A stretch of 64,000 nt of DNA. Origin: Cellulosimicrobium cellulans. GTDB lineage: Bacteria > Actinomycetota > Actinomycetes > Actinomycetales > Cellulomonadaceae. The translations under genes were made by a program, and so were the position numbers. A model generated the notes under the pieces. It was not told the DNA's origin. It saw nothing but the letters and a program-made list of their open reading frames with translations, and searched no databases. Of this stretch, positions 23,657-42,717 are shown one piece after another. Every line of letters begins with the position of its first letter. Position 1 is the first letter of the stretch. Location of the stretch: the NCBI RefSeq assembly GCF_016921195.1, contig NZ_JAFGYF010000006.1, positions 1 to 64,000 of the forward strand. Reading direction: 5' to 3'.

Positions 23657-25522
23657 ATGAGCCGCCCCCTGCGCTCCCGGACGTCCACCCACGGCCGCAA
23701 CATGGCCGGCGCCCGCGCCCTCTGGCGCGCGACCGGCATGGGCTCGGAGGACTTCGGCAAGCCGATCATCGCGATCGCGAACTCGTACACGCAGTTCGTC
23801 CCCGGCCACGTCCACCTCAAGGACATGGGCGACCTCGTCGCGTCGGCGATCCGCGAGGCGGGCGGCGTCTCCAAGGAGTTCAACACCATCGCCGTCGACG
23901 ACGGCATCGCGATGGGCCACGGCGGCATGCTCTACTCGCTCCCGAGCCGCGACCTCATCGCCGACTCGGTCGAGTACATGGTCAATGCGCACTGCGCGGA
24001 CGCGCTCGTGTGCATCTCGAACTGCGACAAGATCACACCCGGGATGCTCAACGCCGCGCTGCGGCTCAACATCCCGGTGATCTTCGTGTCGGGCGGCCCG
24101 ATGGAGGCCGGCAAGGCGGTGATCGCGGACGGCGTCGCCAAGACCCACCTCAACCTCGTCAACGCGATCAACTACTCGGCGGACGACAACGTGTCCGACG
24201 CCGCCCTCGCCCAGGTCGAGGAGAACGCGTGCCCCACGTGCGGGTCGTGCTCGGGCATGTTCACCGCGAACTCGATGAACTGCCTCACCGAGGCGCTCGG
24301 CCTGTCGCTGCCGGGCAACGGCTCGACCCTCGCCACGCACGCCGCGCGCAAGGAGCTGTTCCTCGAGGCCGGCCGCACGATCGTCGACCTCGCCAAGCGC
24401 TACTACGAGGACGAGGACGACTCGGTCGCCCCGCGCTCGATCGCGACCAAGGCCGCGTTCTCCAACGCCATGGCCCTCGACGTCGCGATGGGCGGTTCCA
24501 CCAACACGGTGCTCCACATCCTCGCCGCCGCGCAGGAGGCCGAGGTCGACTTCGACCTCACCGACATCGAGCGCATCAGCCGCCAGGTGCCGTGCCTGTC
24601 GAAGGTCGCGCCGAACCACCCGAACTTCCACATGGAGGACGTGCACCGCGCGGGCGGCATCCCCGCGCTCCTCGGCGAGCTCGACCGTGCGGGGCTGCTC
24701 GACCACGACGTCACCAGCGTCCACACCCCGACGCTGCGCGAGTGGCTCGACGACTGGGACGTCCGGGGCGGCAAGGCGACCGAGCGGGCGATCGAGCTGT
24801 TCCACGCGGCGCCCGGGGGAGTGCGCACCACGCAGGCGTTCTCGACGTCGAACCGCTGGGAGTCGCTCGACACCGACGCCGCGAACGGCTGCATCCGCGA
24901 CCTCGAGCACGCGTACACCGTCGAGGGTGGCCTCGCCGTGCTGCGCGGCAACCTCGCCGAGGACGGCGCCGTGTTCAAGACGGCCGGCGTCGACCCGGAC
25001 GTCTTCCACTTCGTCGGGAAGGCGCTCGTCTGCGAGTCGCAGGACGAGGCGGTCGAGAAGATCCTCACCAAGCAGGTCCAGCCCGGCCACGTCGTCGTCG
25101 TGCGCTACGAGGGCCCGGCGGGCGGCCCGGGCATGCAGGAGATGCTCTACCCGACGTCGTTCATCAAGGGTCGCGGCCTCGGCAAGGTGACGGCGCTCAT
25201 CACCGACGGCCGCTTCTCCGGCGGGTCGTCCGGGATCTCCGTCGGCCACGTCTCGCCCGAGGCCGCCGCGGGCGGCGTCATCGGTCTCGTCGAGGACGGC
25301 GACGAGATCGAGATCGACGTCGACACGCGACTCATCCGTCTCAACGTGCCCGACGACGTGCTCGCCGAGCGCCGCGCCAAGATGGAGGCGCGCGAGAACC
25401 CGTGGCAGCCGGTCGACCGAGACCGCTACGTCTCGCCGGCTCTCCAGGCCTACGCCGCCATGGCGACGTCCGCCGACCGCGGCGCCGTCCGCGACGTGTC
25501 GCTCATCAAGCGCAACCGCTGA
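23657..25522 (+). CDS. ilvD: Dihydroxyacid dehydratase, Escherichia-type ([4Fe-4S]-like cysteine pattern)
   Basis: IlvD removes water from dihydroxy-isovalerate and dihydroxy-methylvalerate, giving the keto acids that precede valine and isoleucine. At 621 residues it matches the longer, E. coli-like class. Cys123 ([10 protein letters not shown]) and Cys195/Cys198 ([19 protein letters not shown]) are visible. The early cysteine that the [2Fe-2S] class carries is replaced ([11 protein letters not shown]). A terminator follows at 25529. A second, distinct dehydratase gene lies 426 bases downstream. Confidence 0.95.
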
Positions 25523-25528
25523 CCCCGA

Positions 25529-25569
25529 CGACGACGGGCCCGCACCTCCGAGGCGCGGGCCCGTCGTCG
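25529..25569 (+). terminator. Terminator-like hairpin after the first ilvD
   Basis: CGACGACGGGCCCGC (25529-25543) pairs perfectly with GCGGGCCCGTCGTCG (25555-25569) around an 11-base loop, starting seven bases after the stop codon. Confidence 0.75.
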
Positions 25570-25590
25570 CGCTCGGGGCTGCCGCTTGGG

Positions 25591-25918
25591 CGCCGAGGTA
25601 GAACTCTGGTCGGCCGAGGTAGAACCGTGGTCGGCCGAGATAGAACCGTGGTCACGCGAGGTAGAACCGTGGTCGGCCCAGATAGAACCGTGGTCGGCCA
25701 GGCGGCGGTGGGGCGCCCGATGCGGCACGCTGCCCGCGACGGCCGGACCGCGACGACGAGACCAACCGGGACGACCGCGCGCCGTCGCGCAGGGACCACG
25801 GTTCTACCTCGGCCAACCACGGTTCTACCTCGCGCGACCACGGTTCTACCTCGCGTGACCACGGTTCTACCTCGGCCGACCACGGTTCTATCTCGCGCTA
25901 CCGCGGTTCTACCTCGCC
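25591..25918. repeat. TAGA-box repeat locus R4, five forward and six reverse units
   Basis: Five forward units (25591-25694, 21-base period, consensus CCGAGGTAGAACCGTGGTCG) and six reverse units (25795-25918, consensus ACCACGGTTCTACCTCG) are separated by a 100-base GC-rich spacer. Almost all share core ACCG. The first forward unit (ACTC) and last reverse unit (CGCGG) differ, so the edges have decayed. The halves could pair over about 100 bases. The array fills most of the gap between two dihydroxyacid dehydratase genes. Confidence 0.9.
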
Positions 25919-25948
25919 GGGGCGGGGGTGGGTTCCTAGAGTGGGGGC

Positions 25949-27667
25949 ATGACTGGGCAGACCCCGCGCGCCGACGCCGGACCCGACCTCAAGCCTCGTT
26001 CCCGCCAGGTCACGGACGGCCTGGAGGCGACGGCGTCGCGCGGCATGCTGCGCGCCGTCGGGATGGGCGACGAGGACTTCGCCAAGCCGCAGATCGGCAT
26101 CGCGAGCTCGTGGAACGAGATCACGCCGTGCAACCTGTCGCTCGACCGGCTCGCGCAGGGCGCGAAGGAGGGCGTGCACGCGGGCGGCGGGTACCCGCTG
26201 CAGTTCGGGACGATCTCCGTCTCCGACGGCATCTCGATGGGCCACGAGGGCATGCACTTCTCGCTCGTGAGCCGCGACATCATCGCGGACTCGGTCGAGA
26301 CCGTGGTCCAGGCGGAACGCCTCGACGGGACGGTCCTGCTCGCCGGGTGCGACAAGTCGCTCCCGGGGATGCTCATGGCGGCGGCGCGGCTGAACCTGGC
26401 GAGCGTGTTCCTCTACGCGGGCTCGATCATGCCGGGCTGGGTCAAGCTCTCCGACGGCACGGAGAAGGACGTCACGCTCATCGACGCGTTCGAGGCCGTC
26501 GGGGCGTGCGCGCGCGGGCTCATGAGCCGCCAGGACGTGGATCGCATCGAGCGGGCGATCTGCCCCGGCGAGGGTGCGTGCGGCGGCATGTACACGGCGA
26601 ACACGATGGCGTCGGTCGCGGAGGCGATGGGCATGTCGCTGCCCGGCTCGGCGGCGCCGCCGTCGGCGGACCGGCGCCGGGACGCGTTCGCGCACCGCTC
26701 GGGCGAGGCCGTCGTCAACCTGCTGCGGCTCGGGATCACCGCACGCGACATCATGACGAAGGAGGCGTTCGAGAACGCGATCGCCGTCGTCATGGCGTTC
26801 GGCGGCTCGACCAACGCGGTGCTGCACCTGCTGGCCATCGCGCACGAGGCCGAGGTCGACCTCACGCTCGCCGACTTCGACCGCGTCGCGAGCCGCGTGC
26901 CGCACCTCGGCGACCTCAAGCCGTTCGGCCGCTACGTGATGAACGACGTCGACCGCATCGGCGGCGTGCCCGTCGTCATGAAGGCTCTGCTCGACGCCGG
27001 GCTGCTGCACGGCGACGCGCTCACCGTCACGGGCCGCACGGTCGCGGAGAACCTCGCCGACATCGACCCGCCCGACCCGGACGGCAAGATCCTGCGGGCG
27101 CTCGACAACCCGATCCACCACACCGGCGGCATCACGATCCTGCACGGGTCGCTCGCGCCCGAGGGCGCCGTCGTGAAGTCCGCCGGGTTCGACGAGGACG
27201 TGTTCGAGGGGACGGCGCGCGTGTTCGAGCGCGAGCGCGCGGCGCTCGACGCCCTGGAGGACGGGACGATCACGGACGGGGACGTCGTCGTCATCCGGTA
27301 CGAGGGGCCCAAGGGCGGTCCGGGGATGCGCGAGATGCTCGCGATCACGGGCGCGATCAAGGGCGCGGGGCTCGGCAAGACCGTCCTGCTGCTCACCGAC
27401 GGCCGCTTCTCCGGCGGGACGACCGGCCTGTGCGTCGGGCACGTCGCGCCCGAGGCGGTCGACGGCGGTCCCATCGCGTTCGTGCGCGACGGCGACCCGA
27501 TCCGGCTCGACGTCGCGAACAAGACGCTCGACCTGCTGGTCGACGCCGACACGCTCGCCGCGCGCCGCGACGGGTGGGCGCCGCTGCCCCCGACGTTCAC
27601 GCGCGGCGTGCTCGCCAAGTACGCCAAGCTCGTCCAGTCGGCGTCGCGCGGCGCGATCCTCGAGTGA
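25949..27667 (+). CDS. Dihydroxyacid dehydratase, mycobacterial type ([2Fe-2S]-like cysteine pattern)
   Basis: The 572-residue protein belongs to the same family as the upstream ilvD but to the other subclass. Three cysteines expected to bind a [2Fe-2S] cluster are present: Cys61 ([11 protein letters not shown]), Cys134 ([11 protein letters not shown]) and Cys211 ([15 protein letters not shown]). It ends with GCD-independent motifs [20 protein letters not shown]. The two proteins are therefore not a recent duplication. TAGAGT (25937-25942) lies six bases before the ATG, suggesting a leaderless transcript of its own. It may be the main enzyme or may act on a sugar acid; gene context does not decide. 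Confidence 0.92.
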
Positions 27668-27747: not shown

Positions 27748-28422
27748 ATGACCGAGACCGCCGACGACCGCATTACCGCGCGGCAGTTCCACGACAGCGA
27801 CGGCGTCGAGGACTGGCGGGTCATCCTCAGGACGGTGCAGACGCTGTTCCGCACGGGCTCGTTCACCGCCGGGGTAGAGCTGGTCGACGCGATCGGCGAG
27901 CTCGCCGAGGCCGCGAACCACCACCCCGACGTGGACCTGCGCTACGGGACCGTGACGGTCCGGCTGACCTCGCACGACGTCGGGGGCGTCAGCGCGCGCG
28001 ACGTCGCGCTCGCGCGGCAGATCTCTGCCGCGGCGCGCGAGCTCGACCTCGTCGCGGACCCGACGGCGGTGCAGGACCTCGAGATCGCGATCGACACGCT
28101 CGTCGGTACGGCGGTGCAGCCGTTCTGGCGCGCCGTCCTCGGTTTCGACGAGGGCGCCCCGGAGCTGCCCGCGCCCGAGCTCCGCGACCCGACCGCGCAC
28201 GCTCCCGCGTTCTGGTTCCAGCAGATGGACGCGCCGCGGGAGCAGCGCAACCGGATCCACGTGGACGTGACCGTGCCGCACGACGTCGCCGAGGCGCGCG
28301 TGACCGCCGCCATCGCCGCGGGCGGGCACCTCGTGTCCGACCGGCGCGCGCCCGCCTTCTGGGTCCTGGCCGACGCCGAGGGCAACGAGGCGTGCGTGTG
28401 CACGTGGCAGTCGCGCGACTGA
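27748..28422 (+). CDS. 4a-hydroxytetrahydrobiopterin dehydratase-like protein fused to a VOC domain
   Basis: Residues about 8-105 are pterin-4a-carbinolamine dehydratase-like, with the motif ANHHPDVDLRYGTVTVRL followed by SHDVGGVSARDVALARQI. Residues about 110-224 look like a single glyoxalase/VOC module (FWRAVLGFD, AFWFQQMD, RIHVDVTVPHD, FWVLADAEGNEACVCTW). PCD recycles the pterin cofactor of aromatic hydroxylases, but none is seen nearby, so the role of the fusion is open. The ribosome site GGAGGA precedes the ATG, and TAGCGT at 27701 is a possible -10. Confidence 0.8.
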   Translation: MTETADDRITARQFHDSDGVEDWRVILRTVQTLFRTGSFTAGVELVDAIGELAEAANHHPDVDLRYGTVTVRLTSHDVGGVSARDVALARQISAAARELDLVADPTAVQDLEIAIDTLVGTAVQPFWRAVLGFDEGAPELPAPELRDPTAHAPAFWFQQMDAPREQRNRIHVDVTVPHDVAEARVTAAIAAGGHLVSDRRAPAFWVLADAEGNEACVCTWQSRD

Positions 28423-29351: not shown

Positions 29352-30671
29352 TCAGGCGCGCGCGACGACGAGCTCGTCGTAGCCCGGCACGAGCACACGC
29401 CGCTTGGCCCTGCGGGACACGATGCGCAGGGGAGCGCCGTCGTCCCACAGCGCGTGCAGCAGCGCGGCGATCTCGGCGCGCGCGAGCGCCGCCCCGAGGC
29501 ACAGGTGGCGGCCCGCGCCGAACCAGAGCTGCCGGGTCTCGCGCACGTAGGGGCGGTCCGCGCGGAAGGGTCCGGCGGCGACGTTCGCGGCCCACGTGAG
29601 GATCATGACGCGCTCCCCGGCGCGCAGCGTGCGCCCCGCGACGTCGACGTCCGCGGAGACGCCGCGCCCGATGACCGACGCCGGGCTGGTCACGCGCAGC
29701 CCCTCGCGCACGGCGTTCTCGACCGCGTCGGGCTCGCCCGCGGCGCGCTCGACCGGGTGGGCGCGCTCGTCGGCCATCAGCTGGAGCAGGCGGTGCTGCT
29801 CGCCCGTGTCGACAAGGAGCGCGGTGGTGCGGGCCATGGCGGACGCCGACGTCTCCGTCCCCGCGACCATGAGCAGGCTCGCGAGCCCCGTGGTCTCCTC
29901 CAGCCCGAGGCCGAGCTCGCGGCACCGGCCGAGCAGGCGGTCGGCGGGGGCGTGCAGCCACCCGTCGGGAACGCCCCGGGTCAGCTCGGCGACGATCTCT
30001 CGCGCCGCCGCGACCTGCTCCGGCGAGAGGTACGTCGAGCCCGCGCTGCCGAGCGCGATCGACGCGAGGCGCTCGCCCGTCGCGAAGGCCGTGAGCGCGT
30101 CGTCGTCGCCGGGGACGACCGCGGCCGCGCCGTCGGGAGCGGCCGCGCCGCCGAGCGTCGGTATGCCGAGCAGGGAGATCATCATCCGACCGACCAGCAC
30201 GCGGGCCAGCCGGCCGACGTCGACCGATCCGCCCGCCGCGAGGGTGCGGCGCGCGTCGTCGAGGGCTGCCGACCACGCGCCGTCGACCAGCGCGGCGGCG
30301 CTCGCCTCCGTGAAGAGCTCGCGCGAGCGCGTGCGCAGGTCGTGGTGGCCTGGGCCGTCGAACAGGTCGAGGACCCAGTCGCCCAGGATCTGCGCCCACA
30401 GGTGCCCGACGCCGCCCTCGCCGACGATCGTGAAGTGCCGGTGGTCGGTGAGGATGCGGCGCCCGACCGTCGGGTCGGCGGTGACCCAGCCGAGCCCCGG
30501 GACCTTGCGCAGCCCACCGCCCGCGCGCGCTCCGGCGAGCGCGCCGCCCGCGAGCAGGACGCCCGCCATCGCGGGCCGCGCGGCGGTGAGCACCTGGAGC
30601 TCGCGCCGGGTCGTGGGCAGGGCGTGGCGTCGCTCGCGGGTGTTCACCGGCGCGGTCGTGGTCGTGGTCAC
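29352..30671 (-). CDS. Cytochrome P450 (divergent member of the OleA-type cluster)
   Basis: The 439-residue haem monooxygenase has the I-helix oxygen-binding motif MVAGTETSASAM, the ExxR motif in VREGLRVTSP, and the haem loop WFGAGRHLCLGAALARAE with ligand Cys391. Like other bacterial P450s it should need ferredoxin and reductase partners, which are not in the window. It starts with a GTG at 30671 and is divergent from the ketosynthase operon, with 128 bases between them. Together with the second P450 it would tailor the product of that operon. The substrate is unknown. Confidence 0.9.
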   Translation of the reverse strand: MTTTTTAPVNTRERRHALPTTRRELQVLTAARPAMAGVLLAGGALAGARAGGGLRKVPGLGWVTADPTVGRRILTDHRHFTIVGEGGVGHLWAQILGDWVLDLFDGPGHHDLRTRSRELFTEASAAALVDGAWSAALDDARRTLAAGGSVDVGRLARVLVGRMMISLLGIPTLGGAAAPDGAAAVVPGDDDALTAFATGERLASIALGSAGSTYLSPEQVAAAREIVAELTRGVPDGWLHAPADRLLGRCRELGLGLEETTGLASLLMVAGTETSASAMARTTALLVDTGEQHRLLQLMADERAHPVERAAGEPDAVENAVREGLRVTSPASVIGRGVSADVDVAGRTLRAGERVMILTWAANVAAGPFRADRPYVRETRQLWFGAGRHLCLGAALARAEIAALLHALWDDGAPLRIVSRRAKRRVLVPGYDELVVARA

Positions 30672-30786
30672 CGGGTCAGTGTGGCGCACGTGCGTCGGTC
30701 CCGGGCGCGCGCGCCGCGATCTGGGGATGGGCACTTCACCCCATCGGATCCTGTGGACGACCACCGTCGGAGCGGGTCTGCTTGGT

Positions 30787-30799
30787 TACTGTGTCGCGC
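30787..30799 (+). promoter_or_regulatory. Leaderless -10 of the ketosynthase operon
   Basis: TACTGT (30787-30792) stands seven bases before the GTG at 30800. No convincing -35 is seen 17 bases upstream. It decides the start I chose for the ketosynthase gene. Confidence 0.45.
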
Positions 30800-31891
30800 G
30801 TGCCAGAGAACCCCGCCGGGACGGCGTCCCGCCCGCCCTTCGTGCCCCCGACGGCCGTGATCGCCGCCGTCGGGGTCCACCTGCCTGAGCGCACGGTCGA
30901 CGTGCGCGAGGCGGAGCGCGCCCTCGCGGCGCGCAACCCGGGTGCGGCGCCGCGCGTGCCGATGGTCTCGCGCCTCACGGGCGTGCGGCAGGTGCACGTG
31001 CTCCCGGACGACTGGGACGCGTCCGACCTCGCCGTCGCGGCCGCGGAGAAGCTCCTGGCGACCGAGGGGCTCGCGCCCGACGACGTCGACCTGCTGCTCT
31101 TCGCCTCGGCGAGCCAGGACATGGTCGAGCCGGCGACGAGCCACATCGTCGCCGCGAAGCTCGGGGTCCGGGCGCCGGTGATGGACGTCAAGAACGCGTG
31201 CAACTCGGTGCTCAACGCGATCGAGGTCGCGGAGGCGCTCATCGGCACCAGGCGTTACGGGACCGTCCTGATCGCGTCGGGCGAGGCGCCGTCGCGTGCG
31301 GTGCGGTGGGACGTCCCGGACCGCGCGACCTACCTGCTCTCCGCGCCGGGCTACACGATGTCCGACGCCGGGGCGGCCGTCCTCGTGCGCCGCGCGACCC
31401 CGGCGGAGGCCGACGCGCGCGACGCGGCCGGGGCGCCCGCGCCGCGCGGCATCCTCGCGAGCGCGTTCGGCGCGGAGTCGACGCACTGGGACGTCGGCAT
31501 GCTCCCCGGCGGTGGCACCGCGCACCCGCGCGACCTCGAGCGGACCTACTTCGAGATCGACGGATCACGCCTGCGCGACGCGTTCCTCGCGCTGGGCCCG
31601 GGAGTCGTCCTCGACGCGCTGGGCCGCGCGGGCCTGGGGTGGGACGACGTCGCGCTCGTCGCGGTCCACCAGGTCGCGGTCGCCTACCTCGACGACGTGC
31701 ACGCCGCGCTCGGCCTCCCGACGGGGCGCACGCTCGTCACCGTCGCCGACCACGGCAACGTCGCCTCCGCGACGCTCCCGTTGCAGCTCGCCACGGCGCT
31801 GGAGACCGGCCGGGTCGGGCCGGGGGACGTCGTCGTGCTGGTCGGGCTCGCCGGCGGCATCAGCATCGGCGCGACGGTGGTGCGGCTGTGA
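30800..31891 (+). CDS. Ketoacyl-ACP synthase III / OleA-like condensing enzyme
   Basis: The 363-residue thiolase-fold enzyme has the Cys-His-Asn triad of the FabH/OleA group: Cys134 (VKNACNSVLNAI), His290 (VAVHQVAVAYL) and Asn320 (DHGNVASATL). Glu110 in SQDMVEPATSH stands where OleA enzymes have the glutamate used in head-to-head Claisen condensation and where FabH lacks it. That favours joining of two acyl chains, by comparison from memory. It opens a five-gene operon whose next start overlaps its stop (GTGA). A start at GTG 30791 is also possible. Confidence 0.82.
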   Translation: MPENPAGTASRPPFVPPTAVIAAVGVHLPERTVDVREAERALAARNPGAAPRVPMVSRLTGVRQVHVLPDDWDASDLAVAAAEKLLATEGLAPDDVDLLLFASASQDMVEPATSHIVAAKLGVRAPVMDVKNACNSVLNAIEVAEALIGTRRYGTVLIASGEAPSRAVRWDVPDRATYLLSAPGYTMSDAGAAVLVRRATPAEADARDAAGAPAPRGILASAFGAESTHWDVGMLPGGGTAHPRDLERTYFEIDGSRLRDAFLALGPGVVLDALGRAGLGWDDVALVAVHQVAVAYLDDVHAALGLPTGRTLVTVADHGNVASATLPLQLATALETGRVGPGDVVVLVGLAGGISIGATVVRL

Positions 31892-32679
31892 GCGCGCGCC
31901 GGTTCACGCGGCACGTCGCGAGCCCGCAGCGGCTCGCCGTCGTCGTGCCCGCCCGCGACGAGGCGCACGGGATCGTCGCGACGCTCGAGGCGCTGCGGGA
32001 CCAGCAGGACACCGACTTCGACCTCGTCGTCGTGGACAACGGGTCGTCCGACGGCACGGGAGACCTCGTCCGGGAGACGGCCGCGGCGTGGGGCATGACG
32101 CGGTGGCGCGTCGTCGACGAGCCGCAGAAGGGCACGGGCGCCGCGGCAGACACGGGGATGCGGGCGGCGATCGAGCAGGGGGCGACGCACCTCGCGCGCA
32201 CGGACGCCGACTGCCTGCCGCGGCCGGACTGGACCCGGCGGGTCCGTGCGGCGTTCGCGAGCGGGCACGACCTCGTCGCGGGCCGGCTCGTGGCGCGCAC
32301 CGACGACCGCCCGGTCTCGCGCGTCCAGCAGGGGGTGCTCTCGGCGGCGGTGAGCGTCGCGAGCACGTTCGGGCGCTTCCGGCCCGGCAACCAGGACCCG
32401 TCCTACCTCGGCCCGTACGTCATGGCGCCGGGCTGCAACATGGCGATCACGGCCGAGCTCTACGAGGCGGCGGGAGGGTTCCCGCGCACGGCGATCGAGG
32501 ACGTCCACGAGGACCGGGCGCTCGTCAACGCGGTGCGCCGCCTGACGCGGCGGTACGGGGCGCACCGCGAGGTCGTCGTGCTCGCGTCGGCGCGCCGTGC
32601 GCACGCGTGGGGCCTCGTGCGCACGCTCGGCTGGTACGCCGACCACCGGTACCGGCCCGAGGTGGTGGACATCCGGTGA
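31888..32679 (+). CDS. Family 2 glycosyltransferase
   Basis: The 263-residue GT-A fold protein has RLAVVVPARDEAHGIVATL at the start, VVVDNGSSDGTGDLV, the DxD metal/sugar-nucleotide motif in ARTDADCLP, and APGCNMAITAELYEAAGGFP followed by EDVHEDRALVNAVRR, the acceptor-side acidic motif. It has no evident membrane helix. Start and stop overlap the neighbouring genes by GTGA on both sides, so it belongs to the ketosynthase operon. It may glycosylate the operon's lipid product. The sugar and acceptor are unknown. Confidence 0.85.
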   Translation: MSARRFTRHVASPQRLAVVVPARDEAHGIVATLEALRDQQDTDFDLVVVDNGSSDGTGDLVRETAAAWGMTRWRVVDEPQKGTGAAADTGMRAAIEQGATHLARTDADCLPRPDWTRRVRAAFASGHDLVAGRLVARTDDRPVSRVQQGVLSAAVSVASTFGRFRPGNQDPSYLGPYVMAPGCNMAITAELYEAAGGFPRTAIEDVHEDRALVNAVRRLTRRYGAHREVVVLASARRAHAWGLVRTLGWYADHRYRPEVVDIR

Positions 32680-33983
32680 CGGGGACGACGGCGGTCGCGC
32701 CTGCCCCGGTCGGGCTCGCCGCGGCGATGCGTTGGGAGGAGCGCGTCCAGCGCGGTGCGCACCCGCTCGTCTACCCGGCGATCCGGGCCCTGCGGCACCG
32801 CGGCCCGGTCGCGCGCGTCCCGGGTATCGGGGTCATCGTGTCCGACGCCGCGACGGCGCGCGCCGTGCTGCTCGACACCGAGCACTTCTCCAAGGTGGGC
32901 CCGGGGTCGCCGTCGGACCTCTGGACGCCCGTGCTCGGCCCGTCCGTGCTCCTCAACATGGAGGGCACCGACCACGCGCGCCTGCGCCGCGCGCTGTCCG
33001 GGCTGTTCACGCCGCGCGCGGTGCGCGACCTCGTCGCGGTGAGCGTGCCCGACGTCCTCGCGGGGCTCGCCCCGCGCCTGCTCGCGGGCGAGCGCGTCGA
33101 CCTCGTCGCGGAGACCGCCACCATGGCGGGCACGGTCATCTGCGCCATGACCGGGCTGCCGCCCACCGACGTCGCCGTGCGCGAGGCGATGACGGCCGCG
33201 CAGTCCGTGGTCGGCCTGGTGCGGCTGCACCGGCGCAGCCTCACGCCCGCGCAGGTGCGGCACGCGCGGGCCGTCCTCGCCCGGCTCTCGGCGCCCGCGC
33301 GTGACGCGTACCGTGCCGGCGACCCGGCAACCGTGCCCGGGCGCATGCGCGAGCTCGGGCTCTCCGAGGACGAGGCCCTGGGCGCCGTCGGGGCGTTCGT
33401 CCTCACGGGGACCGAGACCATCCAGTCGTTCGTGCCCCGTCTCGTCGCGCTCACGGCGGACACCGGCTGGCTCGACCGGCTCCTCGCGGCCGACCCCGGC
33501 GCCGGACCGGAGGCCGCGGCGCTGCGCGGGCGCGTCGTCGAGGAGGCGCTGCGCGTCACGGCGCCGACCCCCGCGATGCTGCGCTCGGTGCGCACCGACG
33601 CGACCGTGGGCGACGTCCGTGTCCGCGCGGGGGACCGGGTCGTGATCGCGACGATCTCCTGCTGCAAGGACGCGGGCCCGTTCGACCCGGACGCCCCCGT
33701 CGACCCGGCCGTGCGACACCTGTGGTTCGGTGCCGGCCCGCACTTCTGCCTCGGCATGCCGCTCGCCATGGCCCAGGTCGACGCGGTACTGGACGCGCTG
33801 CGCCCCGTCGCGGCCGCGGGGCGGAGCGTCGAGGTCGCCGACCGCGCCGTCGCGCGCGGGGTGCTCATCCCCGCGTACCGCTCGCTCGTCGTGCGAGCGG
33901 CCGGCGGCGGGGTGCGCGCGTCGGGTGCGGCCACGCGCCCGATCGCGGGACCGGCCGCGTCGTCGGCGGGGGAGGCGGCGTGA
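32676..33983 (+). CDS. Cytochrome P450 (operon member)
   Basis: The 435-residue P450 has the I-helix motif FVLTGTETIQSF, ExxR in EEALRVTAP, and the haem loop WFGAGPHFCLGMPLAMAQ with ligand Cys358. The substrate-side stretch LLNMEGTDHARLRRALSGLFTPRAV is the C-helix WxxxR-like region (HxxxR form). It overlaps both neighbours by GTGA. It probably oxidises an acyl chain or ring made by the ketosynthase/ligase/reductase set. It is clearly distinct from the divergent P450 and not a duplicate. Confidence 0.9.
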   Translation: MTGTTAVAPAPVGLAAAMRWEERVQRGAHPLVYPAIRALRHRGPVARVPGIGVIVSDAATARAVLLDTEHFSKVGPGSPSDLWTPVLGPSVLLNMEGTDHARLRRALSGLFTPRAVRDLVAVSVPDVLAGLAPRLLAGERVDLVAETATMAGTVICAMTGLPPTDVAVREAMTAAQSVVGLVRLHRRSLTPAQVRHARAVLARLSAPARDAYRAGDPATVPGRMRELGLSEDEALGAVGAFVLTGTETIQSFVPRLVALTADTGWLDRLLAADPGAGPEAAALRGRVVEEALRVTAPTPAMLRSVRTDATVGDVRVRAGDRVVIATISCCKDAGPFDPDAPVDPAVRHLWFGAGPHFCLGMPLAMAQVDAVLDALRPVAAAGRSVEVADRAVARGVLIPAYRSLVVRAAGGGVRASGAATRPIAGPAASSAGEAA

Positions 33984-35734
33984 CCGCGCCCGACGGCGTG
34001 GCCCGCCACCTGCTCGCCCCGATCCTCGAGCGGGGCGCCCCCGGCCATGCGTCCGCCGACGCCGTCGCGCTCCGGCGCTGGACGCGGCCCGGGCGCCGCG
34101 GCGCACGCGTGCGCGAGGAGGTCACGTACGCCGACCTCGCGCGCCGCGTCGAGGCGACCGCCACGGCGCTCGCGGCCGACGGTCTCGCGCCCGGCGATCG
34201 GGCGCTGTTCTCGGTGCGGCCCCGGCCTGCGGGCGTCCTCCTCGCGTTCGGGGTCGTCCGGGCGGGCGGCACGATCGCGTTCGTCGACCCCGGCTCGACG
34301 CCCGAGCTGTTCGCTGCGCGCGTGGAGGCGGCCGGGCCGTCGCTCGCGACGACCGAGTCGCTGCTCTACGCCGTCTCGCGCGGGCCGCTGCGCCGTCTGG
34401 CCCGCTCGCGCGGCCTGCTCCTGCCGGACTACGCGGGCCTGCCGCTGCGGCACGTGCACGCGGGGCCGTGGCTCCCCGGGGTGCCGCGCGGCTCGCGCGC
34501 CGCGCGCCGTCTCGCGGTGGGGCCGGTCGACCGCGGCGTCCTCCCGGAGCTCGACCCGCACCGCGAGGCGCTCATCGTCTTCACGTCGGGCACGACGGCG
34601 CAGCCCAAGGCCGTCGTGCACACGGCCGGGTCGCTGCTCGCCGGGTGCGACCTGCTGCGCGACGTGTTCGCGCTCGTGCCGGGCGACGTCGTGCACACCG
34701 ACCAGATGCTCCTCGGCGTCCCGGCGCTGCTCGCGGGCGCCACGTGGTCCGTGCCCGCCGACCCGCCGGGCCGCGACATCACGACCTTCGCGCGTCAGCT
34801 CGACGGCGCCGCCGGCACCTACCTCGTGCCCGCCGACGTCACGGCGCTGCTGGACGCGGTCGAGGCGGGGACGGTTCCCCCGCGCGGACCGCGGGTCGCG
34901 CTCGTCGGCGGCGCGCCCGTGACCCGCGCGCTCCTGGGGCGCGCGACGCGCGTGCTGCCCGGCACGCGGTGGGTCGCGGTGTACGGGATGACGGAGATCC
35001 TGCCCGTCGCGGTCGTCGGGGCCCGCGAGAAGCTCGCGTACGCGGGCGACGGCGACCTCGTCGGCGCGCCGCTGCCCGGCACGGTCGCGCGGCTCGACCC
35101 GGTCGACGATGAGCAGCCGGGGGACGACGGGGACGCCGTCGGTGAGCTCGTGCTGTCCGGGCCGTCGCTCATGGCGGGCTACCTGCACGACCTCGACGCC
35201 CCCACCCGCGGCGCGGGGTCACGGGCGGCGGTGCACCGCACGGGTGACCTCGCGCGCCTCGACGACGCCGGACGGGTCGTGCTCGTCGGGCGCACGCGGG
35301 ACATGATCATCCGGGGCACGACGAACATCTACCCCGGTCTGCACGAGCCGCGCGTCGCGGCGCTGGAGGGCGTCGGCGAGGCGCTGCTCGTCGGGGTCCC
35401 GCAGGTGGACGGGGACGAGCGGGTCGCGCTGGTCGTCACCGCGGCGACGGGGAACGTGCGGCCGGACCAGTCGTCGGCCGGCGATCCAGGTCCCGACGGC
35501 GGCGCGCCGGTCCGCCTCGACCCGAGCCACCCGCTCGTGGCCCGGGTACGCGCTGCCCTGCCGGACGTGCTCGACCACGACGCGCTCCCGGACGTCGTGC
35601 TGCACGCCGACCGCGTGCCGCTCGCCGGGCGCTCGCGCAAGCCCGACCGGGCGGCGCTCTCCCGGGCCGCCGCGTCGTTCGTGCCCGCCGAGCCGACCGT
35701 CGTCGGCCGGGACACCCGCGGCGCCCGCGCGTGA
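33980..35734 (+). CDS. AMP-dependent acyl ligase, OleC-like (possible beta-lactone synthetase)
   Basis: The 584-residue ANL-family enzyme has the P-loop motif IVFTSGTTAQPKAVVHTAG, the A5 motif VYGMTEILPVAVVG (OleC proteins carry a similar YGATE-LPV), TGDLARLDDAGRVVLVGRTRD, and a C-terminal SRKPDR lysine. OleC adenylates beta-hydroxy acids and closes a beta-lactone, with an OleA-type ketosynthase and OleD-type reductase alongside, as here. A plain fatty acyl-AMP or acyl-CoA ligase is the alternative, since the hinge GRTRDMIIRG is ligase-like. It overlaps both neighbours by GTGA. Confidence 0.75.
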   Translation: MTAPDGVARHLLAPILERGAPGHASADAVALRRWTRPGRRGARVREEVTYADLARRVEATATALAADGLAPGDRALFSVRPRPAGVLLAFGVVRAGGTIAFVDPGSTPELFAARVEAAGPSLATTESLLYAVSRGPLRRLARSRGLLLPDYAGLPLRHVHAGPWLPGVPRGSRAARRLAVGPVDRGVLPELDPHREALIVFTSGTTAQPKAVVHTAGSLLAGCDLLRDVFALVPGDVVHTDQMLLGVPALLAGATWSVPADPPGRDITTFARQLDGAAGTYLVPADVTALLDAVEAGTVPPRGPRVALVGGAPVTRALLGRATRVLPGTRWVAVYGMTEILPVAVVGAREKLAYAGDGDLVGAPLPGTVARLDPVDDEQPGDDGDAVGELVLSGPSLMAGYLHDLDAPTRGAGSRAAVHRTGDLARLDDAGRVVLVGRTRDMIIRGTTNIYPGLHEPRVAALEGVGEALLVGVPQVDGDERVALVVTAATGNVRPDQSSAGDPGPDGGAPVRLDPSHPLVARVRAALPDVLDHDALPDVVLHADRVPLAGRSRKPDRAALSRAAASFVPAEPTVVGRDTRGARA

Positions 35735-36711
35735 GGGTCGTCGTCACCGGGGCGTCGGGGTTCGTCGGGGGAGCGGTCGCGCGCGGCCTCGTCGCCGACG
35801 GCCACGAGGTGTGGACGTCCTCCCGCCGCGACCCGCACGTCCGGGGCGCGCGGCACCTCGCGTGGGACCTCACCACCGGTCCGCTCGCGGACCCACCCAC
35901 GGTGGACGCCGTCGTGCACGCGGGTGCCGCCGTGTCCGACTGGTGCGCGCTCGACGTCGCGCGCGCGACCAACGTCGGCGGGACGCTCGCCGTCCGTGCG
36001 ACCTTCCCGGGCGCGCGGTTCGTCCACGTGTCCTCCGGCAGCGTGTACGACCCGTTCCGTCCGAGCGTGCGCGCCCGCGAGCACGAGGCGCCGGTCGAGC
36101 GGTACCTCGACGCCTACGGGACGACGAAGGCAGAGGCCGAGCGCGTGCTGGCCCACGACGTCGCACGCCACCCCGACCGGGGTGCCGTCGTCGTGCTGCG
36201 CCCGCACGCCGTCTACGGCCCGGGCGACACGACGCTCCTGCCGCGTGTGGAGGCGGCCGTGCGCCGCGGGTGCCTCGTCCTGCCCGGCGGCGGGCGCGTG
36301 CTCCAGTCGCTCACGCACGTCGACACCCTCCTCGCCGCGGTGCGCGCCGCCGTCGTGCTGCCCGACGACACGGCTCGCGCGCAGGTCGGCGACGGGCCGA
36401 CCCGGGGGCTGCTCGTCGTGAACGTCGCCGACGCCGGGCCGGTCGTGCTGCGCGACGCGCTCGTCGACGCGCTGCGCCGCCGCGGTACCGACGTGCGGGT
36501 CGTCGCCGTCCCGGTCCGACCCGCGTGGGCGCTCGCCGGCGCGGTCGAGACGGTCGCGCGGCGGCTCCGACGCCCCGAGCCGCCGCGCCTCACCAGGTAC
36601 GCACTGAGCCATCTCGCGATGGAGCGGACCTTCGACCTCACGGTCCTGCGGGACGTCCTGGGCGTCGAGCCGGCTCCGACGTCGTTCGCGTGGCTCGGCC
36701 TCGCCGAGTGA
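35731..36711 (+). CDS. NAD(P)-dependent epimerase/dehydrogenase, OleD-like
   Basis: The 326-residue extended short-chain dehydrogenase has the cofactor motif VVVTGASGFVGGAVARGL, catalytic YGTTK (YxxxK) after VHVSSGSVYDP, and RPHAVYGPGD. The C-terminus, LTRYALSHLAMERTFDLTVLRDVLGVEP, resembles 3-beta-HSD/OleD-type proteins. OleD reduces the beta-keto acid made by OleA to the hydroxy acid used by OleC. It is the last gene of the operon, overlapping the ligase gene by GTGA. Confidence 0.8.
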   Translation: MRVVVTGASGFVGGAVARGLVADGHEVWTSSRRDPHVRGARHLAWDLTTGPLADPPTVDAVVHAGAAVSDWCALDVARATNVGGTLAVRATFPGARFVHVSSGSVYDPFRPSVRAREHEAPVERYLDAYGTTKAEAERVLAHDVARHPDRGAVVVLRPHAVYGPGDTTLLPRVEAAVRRGCLVLPGGGRVLQSLTHVDTLLAAVRAAVVLPDDTARAQVGDGPTRGLLVVNVADAGPVVLRDALVDALRRRGTDVRVVAVPVRPAWALAGAVETVARRLRRPEPPRLTRYALSHLAMERTFDLTVLRDVLGVEPAPTSFAWLGLAE

Positions 36712-38916: not shown

Positions 38917-39117
38917 GCCACCACACCGGCACGACAACACCACACAGGACCGCGGAGGGCCCACCCGGCCACCGCGAGCGCCGCACTCGCGAGACCCGTG
39001 AGGCCCGGCACCGCACACCGCGACCAGCACGACCGCACCACCACGGTCGGCTCCGGTACCCGGCGGAGCGCCCCCAGGGCGCCCGCCGGGCCGAGGCCAC
39101 GACACGCAGGAGACACC

Positions 39118-41031
39118 ATGGCCCAGGGTCCCACCCCGGCACCTCCGCGACCGGGCGCCCCGACGCCCGCCGCCGCGGCGCCGAAGCCCGCCCCGACACC
39201 CGCGTCGGTCGCCCCGCGCGGCGACGTCCGGCGCGCTGCCACGGCTCGCCCGGCCGGCAGCGCGCAGGGCACCTCGACGGGTGAGGAGATGACCGGCGCG
39301 CAGTCGATCGTCCGCTCGCTCGAGGAGGTCGGCGCCGAGGTCGTCTTCGGCATCCCGGGTGGTGCGATCCTCCCGACGTACGACCCGCTCATGGACTCCC
39401 AGCGCCTGCGGCACATCCTCGTGCGTCACGAGCAGGGGGGCGGCCACGCCGCGCAGGGCTACGCCCACGCGACCGGCAAGGTCGGCGTCACGATGGCCAC
39501 CTCGGGCCCGGGTGCGACCAACCTCGTCACCCCGATCGCCGACGCCAACATGGACTCGATCCCGCTCGTCGCGATCACGGGCCAGGTGGCCGAGTCGCTG
39601 ATCGGCACGGACGGCTTCCAGGAGGCCGACATCGTGGGCATCACCATGCCCATCACCAAGCACTCGTACCTGGTCACCGACGCGGCCGACATCCCGCGCA
39701 CCATCGCCGAGGCGTTCCACATCGCCTCGACCGGCCGCCCCGGCCCCGTGCTCGTGGACATCGCGAAGTCGGCGATGCAGTCGCGCACGACGTTCTCGTG
39801 GCCGCAGGACGTGCAGCTCCCGGGCTACCACCCGGTGACGAAGCCGCACAGCAAGCAGATCAAGGAGGCCGCGCGCCTGCTCGCGTCGGCCCGCCGCCCG
39901 GTGCTCTACGTGGGCGGCGGTGTGATCCGCGCGAACGCGTCCGCCGAGCTGCGCCGGCTCGTCGACCTGTCCGGCGCGCCCGTCGTCACGACCCTCATGG
40001 CCCGTGGTGCCGTGCCCGACAGCCACCCCCAGAACCTCGGCATGCCCGGCATGCACGGCACCGTGCCCGCCGTCGCCGCGCTGCAGAAGGCCGACCTGGT
40101 CGTGTCCCTCGGCGCCCGCTTCGACGACCGCGTCACGGGCAAGCTCTCGAGCTTCGCGCCGCACGCCCAGGTCGTGCACGCCGACATCGACCCCGCCGAG
40201 ATCGGCAAGAACCGCGACGTGGACGTCCCGATCGTCGGAGACCTCAAGGAGGTCATCGCGGACCTGCTCCCGGAGCTCGAGCGCGAGCACGAGGCGAAGG
40301 GCAAGCCGGACGTCGAGGCGTGGTGGCGCCAGATCGACGACTGGCGCGAGACCTACCCGCTCGGCTACACGGAGCCCGACGACGGCCACCTCGCGCCGCA
40401 GCACGTCATCACGCGCCTGGGCGAGATCTCCGGGCCGGAGTCCGTGTACGTCGCGGGCGTGGGGCAGCACCAGATGTGGGCGGCGCAGTTCATCCGCTAC
40501 GAGCACCCGCGCACGTGGCTGAACTCCGGCGGCCTGGGGACCATGGGCTTCTCGATCCCCGCGGCCATGGGCGCGAAGGTCGGCCGCCCCGACGCCACGG
40601 TGTGGGCGATCGACGGCGACGGCTGCTTCCAGATGACCAACCAGGAGCTCGCGACCTGCACGATCAACGAGATCCCCATCAAGGTCGCGCTGATCAACAA
40701 CAGCTCGCTCGGCATGGTGCGCCAGTGGCAGACGCTGTTCTACGACCAGCGCTACTCGAACACGGACCTGCACACGGGACACGGCACGGCGCGCGTCCCC
40801 GACTTCGTCAAGCTCGCCGACGCGTACGGCTGCGAGGGCATCCGCGTCGAGTCGATGGGCGAGGTGGACGCCGCGATCAAGCGCGCGATGGAGATCGACG
40901 ACCGCCCCGTGGTCGTCGACTTCAACGTCTCGCGCGACGCGATGGTGTGGCCGATGGTCGCCGCCGGCGTGAGCAACGACGACATCCAGTACGCGCGCGG
41001 CATCTCGCCCGCGTGGGACCGCGAAGACTGA
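39118..41031 (+). CDS. ilvB: Acetolactate synthase large subunit
   Basis: The ThDP/FAD enzyme makes acetolactate or acetohydroxybutyrate, the first common step to valine, leucine and isoleucine. The 637-residue protein has an extra Pro/Ala-rich N-terminal tail of about 55 residues, then the catalytic Glu105 in [23 protein letters not shown] in the FAD-domain region, and the ThDP motif starting [15 protein letters not shown] and ending [12 protein letters not shown]. It is followed by ilvN after 13 bases. Expression is governed by the attenuator at 38796-38916. Confidence 0.97.

Positions 41032-42717
<1,686 letters not shown>

Follow-up and report, generated by a model that had tools for sequence, protein, structure and literature searches.

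The closest described counterpart of the locus analyzed here is a gene set of Actinoplanes atraurantiacus comprising OleA, a glycosyltransferase, OleC, a cytochrome P450, and OleD, in a genome reported to lack oleB (Smith, Robinson, Molomjamts, and Wackett 2020, mBio, PMC7064751). A glycosylated, hydroxylated beta-lactone was predicted as its product. The OleA homologue, obtained at low enzyme yield, hydrolyzed p-nitrophenyl hexanoate, but Claisen products from C8-C16 acyl-CoA were not observed (PMC7064751). The nlt locus for nocardiolactone and the lst locus for lipstatin also contain oleACD-type genes without oleB (PMC7064751), as does the set described here. OleA-, OleC-, and OleD-type enzymes are likewise found in canonical oleABCD clusters, which carry an oleBC fusion in Micrococcales. 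A sequence-only reading of the present DNA had stated that no pathway with its gene set was described; this statement has to be withdrawn, because a similar set was already described, and its product type predicted, in PMC7064751. No demonstrated product for the gene set was found in the literature searched, which covered few subscription papers, and a search for Cellulosimicrobium together with betalactone gave matches that were all Bacillus by title. The gene set is conserved and of an already predicted kind.

The window, the whole stretch of 64,000 nucleotides of Cellulosimicrobium cellulans DNA that was analyzed, belongs to a genome of 4.58 Mb in 23 contigs. Six genes were confirmed at 29352-36711, where they had first been placed. 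Five overlapping genes in the order KS-GT2-P450B-ANL-SDR run on the + strand, their four junctions being 4-base overlaps (GTG starts, TGA stops), and P450A lies divergently beside the run. Pfam hits were obtained to p450 (P450A and P450B), ACP_syn_III and ACP_syn_III_C, Glycos_transf_2, AMP-binding, and Epimerase, which match the names first given to the genes. The features are as follows.

29352-30671, - strand: P450A, divergent cytochrome P450, accessory (Pfam p450, 43 bits)
30726-30745, no strand: inverted repeat GATGGG-N8-CCCATC, candidate operator, between the divergent P450A and KS
about 30791-31891, + strand: KS, OleA-like ketosynthase of the KAS III/thiolase type (Glu113/Cys137/His293/Asn323)
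31888-32679, + strand: GT2 glycosyltransferase (Glycos_transf_2, 72.5 bits)
32676-33983, + strand: P450B, in-operon cytochrome P450 (Pfam p450, 44 bits)
33980-35734, + strand: ANL, OleC-like adenylate-forming ligase (AMP-binding, 156 bits)
35731-36711, + strand: SDR, OleD-like extended SDR (best NCBIfam model OleD NF042422, 101.5 bits)

The heme-Cys and I-helix motifs of P450A were recognized by eye, and its reading frame has a possible upstream start, up to 30764. The inverted repeat is perfect and matches once in the window, where 0.01 matches are expected; extended by GG, it occurs a single time in the genome. It was found at the equivalent position in six further loci (L071-L075 and L083) and was not found when looked for in L076-L079. 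It is a possible operator of the P450A/KS region; no regulator gene lies within the operon. In GT2, D106 and D108 were invariant among 24 aligned sequences, and a PDB search returned generic GT2 enzymes without a hint at the acceptor. The operon is flanked by genes that were named by eye as two ilvD-like and as ilvB/ilvN/ilvC-like (23657-27667 and 38998-42717), a possible link to branched-chain acyl starters; ilvD-like genes are present in 33 of 82 clustered operon loci. The protein at 27748-28422, by eye an apparent fusion of a pterin dehydratase with a glyoxalase-type domain, belongs to a protein cluster found in 26 of the 82.

A complete canonical oleA-oleBC-oleD cluster is present in the same genome on another contig (L067 6348-11061, equal to about 68347-73060 of G000:C12). 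Its OleA scored 438 bits against PRK09258, and its oleBC gene, at about 69.4-72.1 kb, encodes a protein of 886 residues with haloalkane-dehalogenase-type matches over residues 28-309. The window proteins share 25% (KS-OleA), 28.5% (ANL-OleC), and 34% (SDR-OleD) identity with these canonical proteins. A genome devoid of oleB, as reported for A. atraurantiacus, was ruled out by oleBC on this other contig. The observation that OleA-, OleC-, and OleD-like genes stand together without oleB in the cluster proved correct, and the clustering of OleB with OleA, OleC, and OleD that marks an Ole olefin pathway was not seen in the operon. The implied lack of OleB did not survive: an OleB gene elsewhere, together with alkenes as the product, had been named as a finding that would count against the first interpretation, and the gene was found, so that two OleA-type pathways appear to coexist in the genome.

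The operon might feed the canonical ole pathway if a lactone made by it were decarboxylated by OleBC of the other contig, yielding oxidized or glycosylated alkenes. The presence of oleA-oleBC-oleD in the genome would allow this, and two relatives without the operon SDR also have a canonical ole cluster. However, OleBC already includes an OleC domain and is paired with an OleA of its own, and no OleB match was obtained in any of the 82 operon loci (own OleB as query, tblastn E<=1e-6; contig ends truncate some of the loci, and the genome-wide look at OleB covered those two relatives and the genome of the window). We regard such a shared pathway as highly improbable.

Counted from the start at 30791, the catalytic residues of KS are Glu113, Cys137, His293, and Asn323. 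The Glu110 originally assigned to the OleA-type position corresponds to Glu113 when numbering begins three codons further downstream, and the assignment was correct. When 62 KAS III-type proteins were aligned, this Glu was present in all 25 operon KSs and in all nine OleAs, in none of 23 other KAS III proteins (seven of which are gapped at the position), and in two of five additional KS rows whose genes neighbor OleD-like ones. Cys, His, and Asn were present in all operon KS and OleA rows. The window KS combines Cys-His-Asn with a base of the type of Glu117 of OleA and has the residues expected of an OleA. The OleA of this genome was aligned to PDB entry 3s21. Its best PDB matches were 3fk5 and 3s21, which bears out that both are OleA structures.

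In the tree of all 62 rows, the operon KSs formed one clade (25 rows, 99/97) and shared a fork (97/97) with OleA and the pair L181/L182, where the long branches of OleA and of L181/L182 meet and call for caution. When 13 rows that were long or distant had been taken out and the operon rows reduced to 12, the resulting 36-row tree placed the operon KSs as sister to OleA (98/96) and not nested within it. When the operon rows were forced together with 12 FabH-type rows in this tree, the p-AU value was 0.024, a guide only, since the test was chosen after the first tree had been seen; the three FabH-type rows checked against NCBIfam all scored above the PRK09352 cut-off.

Similarity scores pointed toward FabH. 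The window KS reached 154 bits with the FabH-type model PRK09352 and 122.8 bits with PRK09258 (NF006720), below the cut-off of 285 of the latter, with which the own OleA scored 438.4 bits; NF006720 is named 3-oxoacyl-ACP synthase III and was taken as the OleA model from this last score. FabHs ranked first in a PDB search with the single KS sequence, and a 29-row KS profile gave 4ryb as the best match (180 bits) and 3fk5 as the best OleA entry (145 bits). KS could on this basis be a decarboxylative FabH-type enzyme or an acyltransferase, with head-to-head condensation absent, and the missing Claisen product of the Actinoplanes homologue (PMC7064751) would fit. Against this stand the invariance of the OleA Glu in the operon KSs and the low p-AU value for the grouping with FabH-type rows, and we consider the alternative very unlikely. 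A plain FabH was rejected on the basis of the tree and the Glu despite the scores. A position of KS within FabH had been named in advance as evidence against the first interpretation; KS groups with OleA instead.

The published OleA search pattern EPxx[AS]x(14,18)DxxNACL (PMC7158056) matched all nine OleAs and none of the 25 operon KSs. Without the final L, it matched 22 of the 25 (exceptions L088, L119, and L145); the window KS reads NACN where the pattern ends in NACL. Surveys relying on this pattern would therefore miss the operon ketosynthases. In the two loci L181 (4024-9072) and L182 (3130-8263), an OleD-like SDR accompanies a KS with the OleA Glu (names by eye). The L181 genes adjoin an ACP-like protein, a methyltransferase-like protein is present in both loci, and no oleB or oleC matches were found in them; possibly these genes form another OleA-type pathway.

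ANL carries the motif YGMTEILPV. Among NCBIfam models, the OleC model NF045786 ranked fourth for ANL with 112 bits (cut-off 900), and OleBC of the canonical cluster reached 274 bits, likewise under 900. For SDR, the OleD model NF042422 was the best, with 101.5 bits (cut-off 580), and the canonical OleD of this genome, at 282 bits, was also under 580. As membership tests the two cut-offs were uninformative, because the canonical cluster fails both as well. A 43-row ligase tree was calculated, for which 16 other-ligase loci were supplied (L206 and L222 were not entered) and which excludes the OleC of L183, skipped for length, and many ligases of G320. The operon ANLs (21 rows) formed one clade (100/99), which lies in a 98/98 fork with eight OleCs and L224, another ANL from the same genome, the order among the three being left open; the other 13 ligases stand apart from this fork. 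A ligase placed among plain acyl-CoA ligases would have spoken against the sequence-only reading. ANL is separate from 13 of the 14 other ligases but lies in one fork with OleC and the fourteenth, in which the tree gives no order.

Between the window KS and its counterpart in C. cellulans NBRC 15516, identity is 98%. Of 150 genomes sampled within the family, 47, representing 10 of 25 genera, gave KS matches (E<=1e-40), and the operon is not rare near home. Among 396 genomes drawn from the phylum, four gave KS matches (E<=1e-35), one being the genome of the window itself; another, L036/L070, shows no further operon gene. Viral carriage was ruled out, no relatives being present in the viral contig collection. 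A scan of named genomes (tblastn E<=1e-3) gave 304 stretches, not all of which need be the same family of genes, and the best 80 were kept. These 80 come from Cellulosimicrobium, Isoptericola, Oerskovia, Actinotalea, Promicromonospora, Myceligenerans, Saccharothrix, Lentzea, Saccharopolyspora, Pseudonocardia, Arthrobacter, Salinibacterium, Herbiconiux, Actinomadura, and others. The order KS-GT2-P450B-ANL-SDR was intact in 68 of these best 80, across several actinobacterial families. The remaining 12 comprise five stretches cut by a contig end, three without SDR, two with KS-P450B only, L099 (no ANL match, disordered), and L148 (KS-ANL). P450A (>45% identity) was linked in 41 of the 80, 28 times divergent upstream and 13 times convergent downstream, and was thereby ruled out as an obligate part. 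Among 26 genomes without P450A near KS, three have a copy at an identity of at least 50%, 21 have only matches of 35-42%, which is the level of the paralogue P450B, and two have no match at E<=1e-25.

Two further observations concern the surroundings of the operon. In 11 Arthrobacter/Paenarthrobacter loci (L119, L124, L126, L136-L139, L141, L145, L146, and L149), secY-like and map-like genes flank it in every case (by eye) and adk was called in 10; the operon of these bacteria is in the ribosomal-protein gene region. A record titled Sphaerisporangium cinnabarinum (L075) holds a Cellulosimicrobium-like operon, complete from P450A to SDR and with a KS 93% identical to that of the window, and the name of the record may be wrong.

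From the gene content and order, the conservation, the catalytic residues, and the grouping of KS with OleA, we infer each reaction and the product of the operon. It would encode another lipid pathway of the OleA type in addition to the ordinary ole pathway, leading to an oxidized, glycosylated lipid, probably a beta-lactone, a reading for and against which we find the balance about even. KS would join two acyl chains head to head in a non-decarboxylative Claisen condensation to a beta-keto acid, which SDR would convert to the beta-hydroxy acid. P450B would oxidize the skeleton as a core step. ANL would adenylate the carboxylate, after which the beta-hydroxyl would most likely close the beta-lactone, as in OleC, and GT2 would glycosylate a hydroxyl. 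In lineages carrying P450A, a further oxidation could follow. Because OleB is absent from the set, the oxidized, glycosylated lipid would be the end product. The earlier proposal of a lactone or an oxidized, glycosylated lipid as the end product is reasonable as a product class, with the lactone itself a possibility. Against the proposed course weigh the negative result with the Actinoplanes OleA, the KS scores leaning toward FabH, the open fork of ANL and OleC, and the Isoptericola locus L082, which is without SDR. If the course is true, OleA chemistry would be linked to P450 oxidation and glycosylation.

Loci with split, exchanged, or missing genes bear on the individual steps. In Actinomadura craniellae, KS and ANL (L148) lie on a different contig from P450A/GT2-P450B-SDR (L243), showing that the six genes co-occur without linkage. 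In five genomes, KS and P450B were retained: G747, G905, and G919 (group f2, Micrococcaceae by search group only) and the genomes of L130 and L134 (Herbiconiux). In four of the five, no operon-type ANL was matched at E<=1e-25, the genome of L134 giving a 34% match, and no operon-type GT2 was matched in four at E<=1e-12, with a 34% match in the genome of L130. That P450B is retained where operon-type ANL and GT2 are missing, as in these five genomes, suggests that it is a core gene and not a late tailoring gene. G747, G905, and G919 have kept the operon SDR (42-45%), which is split in two in L239. In L134, an OleD-like SDR (OleD model, 135 bits) precedes KS, and L130 has no SDR at the locus. 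A ligase related to F390 synthetase was found upstream of KS in L238, L239, L242, and L134, accompanied in the first three by an ATP-grasp/GNAT protein; the count covers these four variants only, as the L130 stretch starts 110 bases before KS. The positions are as follows.

L238 3977-7602, L239 3399-7005, and L242 5688-9310: alternative module of F390-synthetase-related ligase and ATP-grasp/GNAT protein, adjoining the OleA-like KS
L134 5571-6863: F390-synthetase-related ligase, adjoining the OleA-like KS

The L238 ligase scored 374 bits with TIGR02304, and the other three are 50-67% identical to it. Of the 82 operon loci, only L134 has a ligase of this kind. The variant KSs sampled (L130, L134, and L192 of G747) formed one clade (97/85) within the operon clade, and the five genomes may represent one event.

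The operon SDR is missing in C. arenosum (L076), C. terreum (L077), and Isoptericola halotolerans (L082). In the former two, a canonical ole cluster includes OleD (L246 and L247; oleA 76-77% identical to that of this genome), and in I. halotolerans no SDR match was found in the locus (E<=10) or the genome (E<=1e-12). OleD could conceivably stand in for the operon SDR in these two of the three genomes; the case is weak, as the genomes of the window and of L078 carry both the operon SDR and an OleD-like gene.

Lactone closure is the weakest link of the proposed pathway, because the assignment of ANL to OleC is not firm and some genomes have a replacement for it, and the five genomes with KS and P450B but without an operon-type ANL indicate that a lactone need not be its point. 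Without a lactone, the KS/SDR/P450B core would lead to an oxidized long-chain beta-hydroxy acid that ANL only activates, for an ester, an amide, or a CoA thioester, and the product would be a glycosylated ester or similar. Such a course fits the five genomes in which KS and P450B persist and no operon-type ANL or GT2 was found in the assemblies at the cut-offs used, and the F390-synthetase-related ligase upstream in four variants would suit general acid activation and not lactone closure. However, the variant KSs form one clade, perhaps from one event with its own product, and the common ANL lies with OleC and not with the 13 other ligases. We see this alternative as a serious one, though on the doubtful side.

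Beyond the pathway with a probable beta-lactone, a more general scheme is possible, and we offer it tentatively: a core of KS, P450B, and OleD-type SDR would build a new class of oxidized head-to-head lipids in actinobacteria, with the P450 step as part of scaffold building and with the activating and decorating modules swapped around it. In most lineages, a module of OleC-like ANL and GT2, with or without P450A, would act on this core, and in others the F390-synthetase-related ligase, with or without the ATP-grasp/GNAT protein. A general role of the product in the cell would be suggested by the seat of the operon beside housekeeping genes. Because ligase modules are exchanged around the KS-P450 core, the sequence of the steps is open to a direct test.

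Compared with the known systems, the operon is closest to the A. atraurantiacus cluster. The window has equivalents of its OleA, glycosyltransferase, OleC, P450, and OleD, likewise without oleB in the set (PMC7064751). The loci L068/L069, of the same class, have the order KS-GT2-ANL-P450-SDR, in which PMC7064751 lists the Actinoplanes genes, and are homologous to the window operon, with 44% (KS), 47-49% (GT2), 38-39% (ANL), and 40-41% (SDR) identity to its proteins; through them, the operon is probably homologous to the Actinoplanes cluster. In contrast to that cluster as listed there, two P450s are present in the window and P450B precedes ANL, and the genome of the window has oleB where the Actinoplanes genome is reported to have none. 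From canonical oleABCD, of which this genome has one, the operon differs by the lack of OleB and the addition of two P450s and GT2. It has a single KS in place of the LstA/LstB pair of lst, as described in PMC7064751, and again carries P450s and GT2 in addition. New relative to the accessible parts of PMC7064751 and PMC7158056 are the persistence of a P450 without ANL and GT2 and the swap of the ligase.
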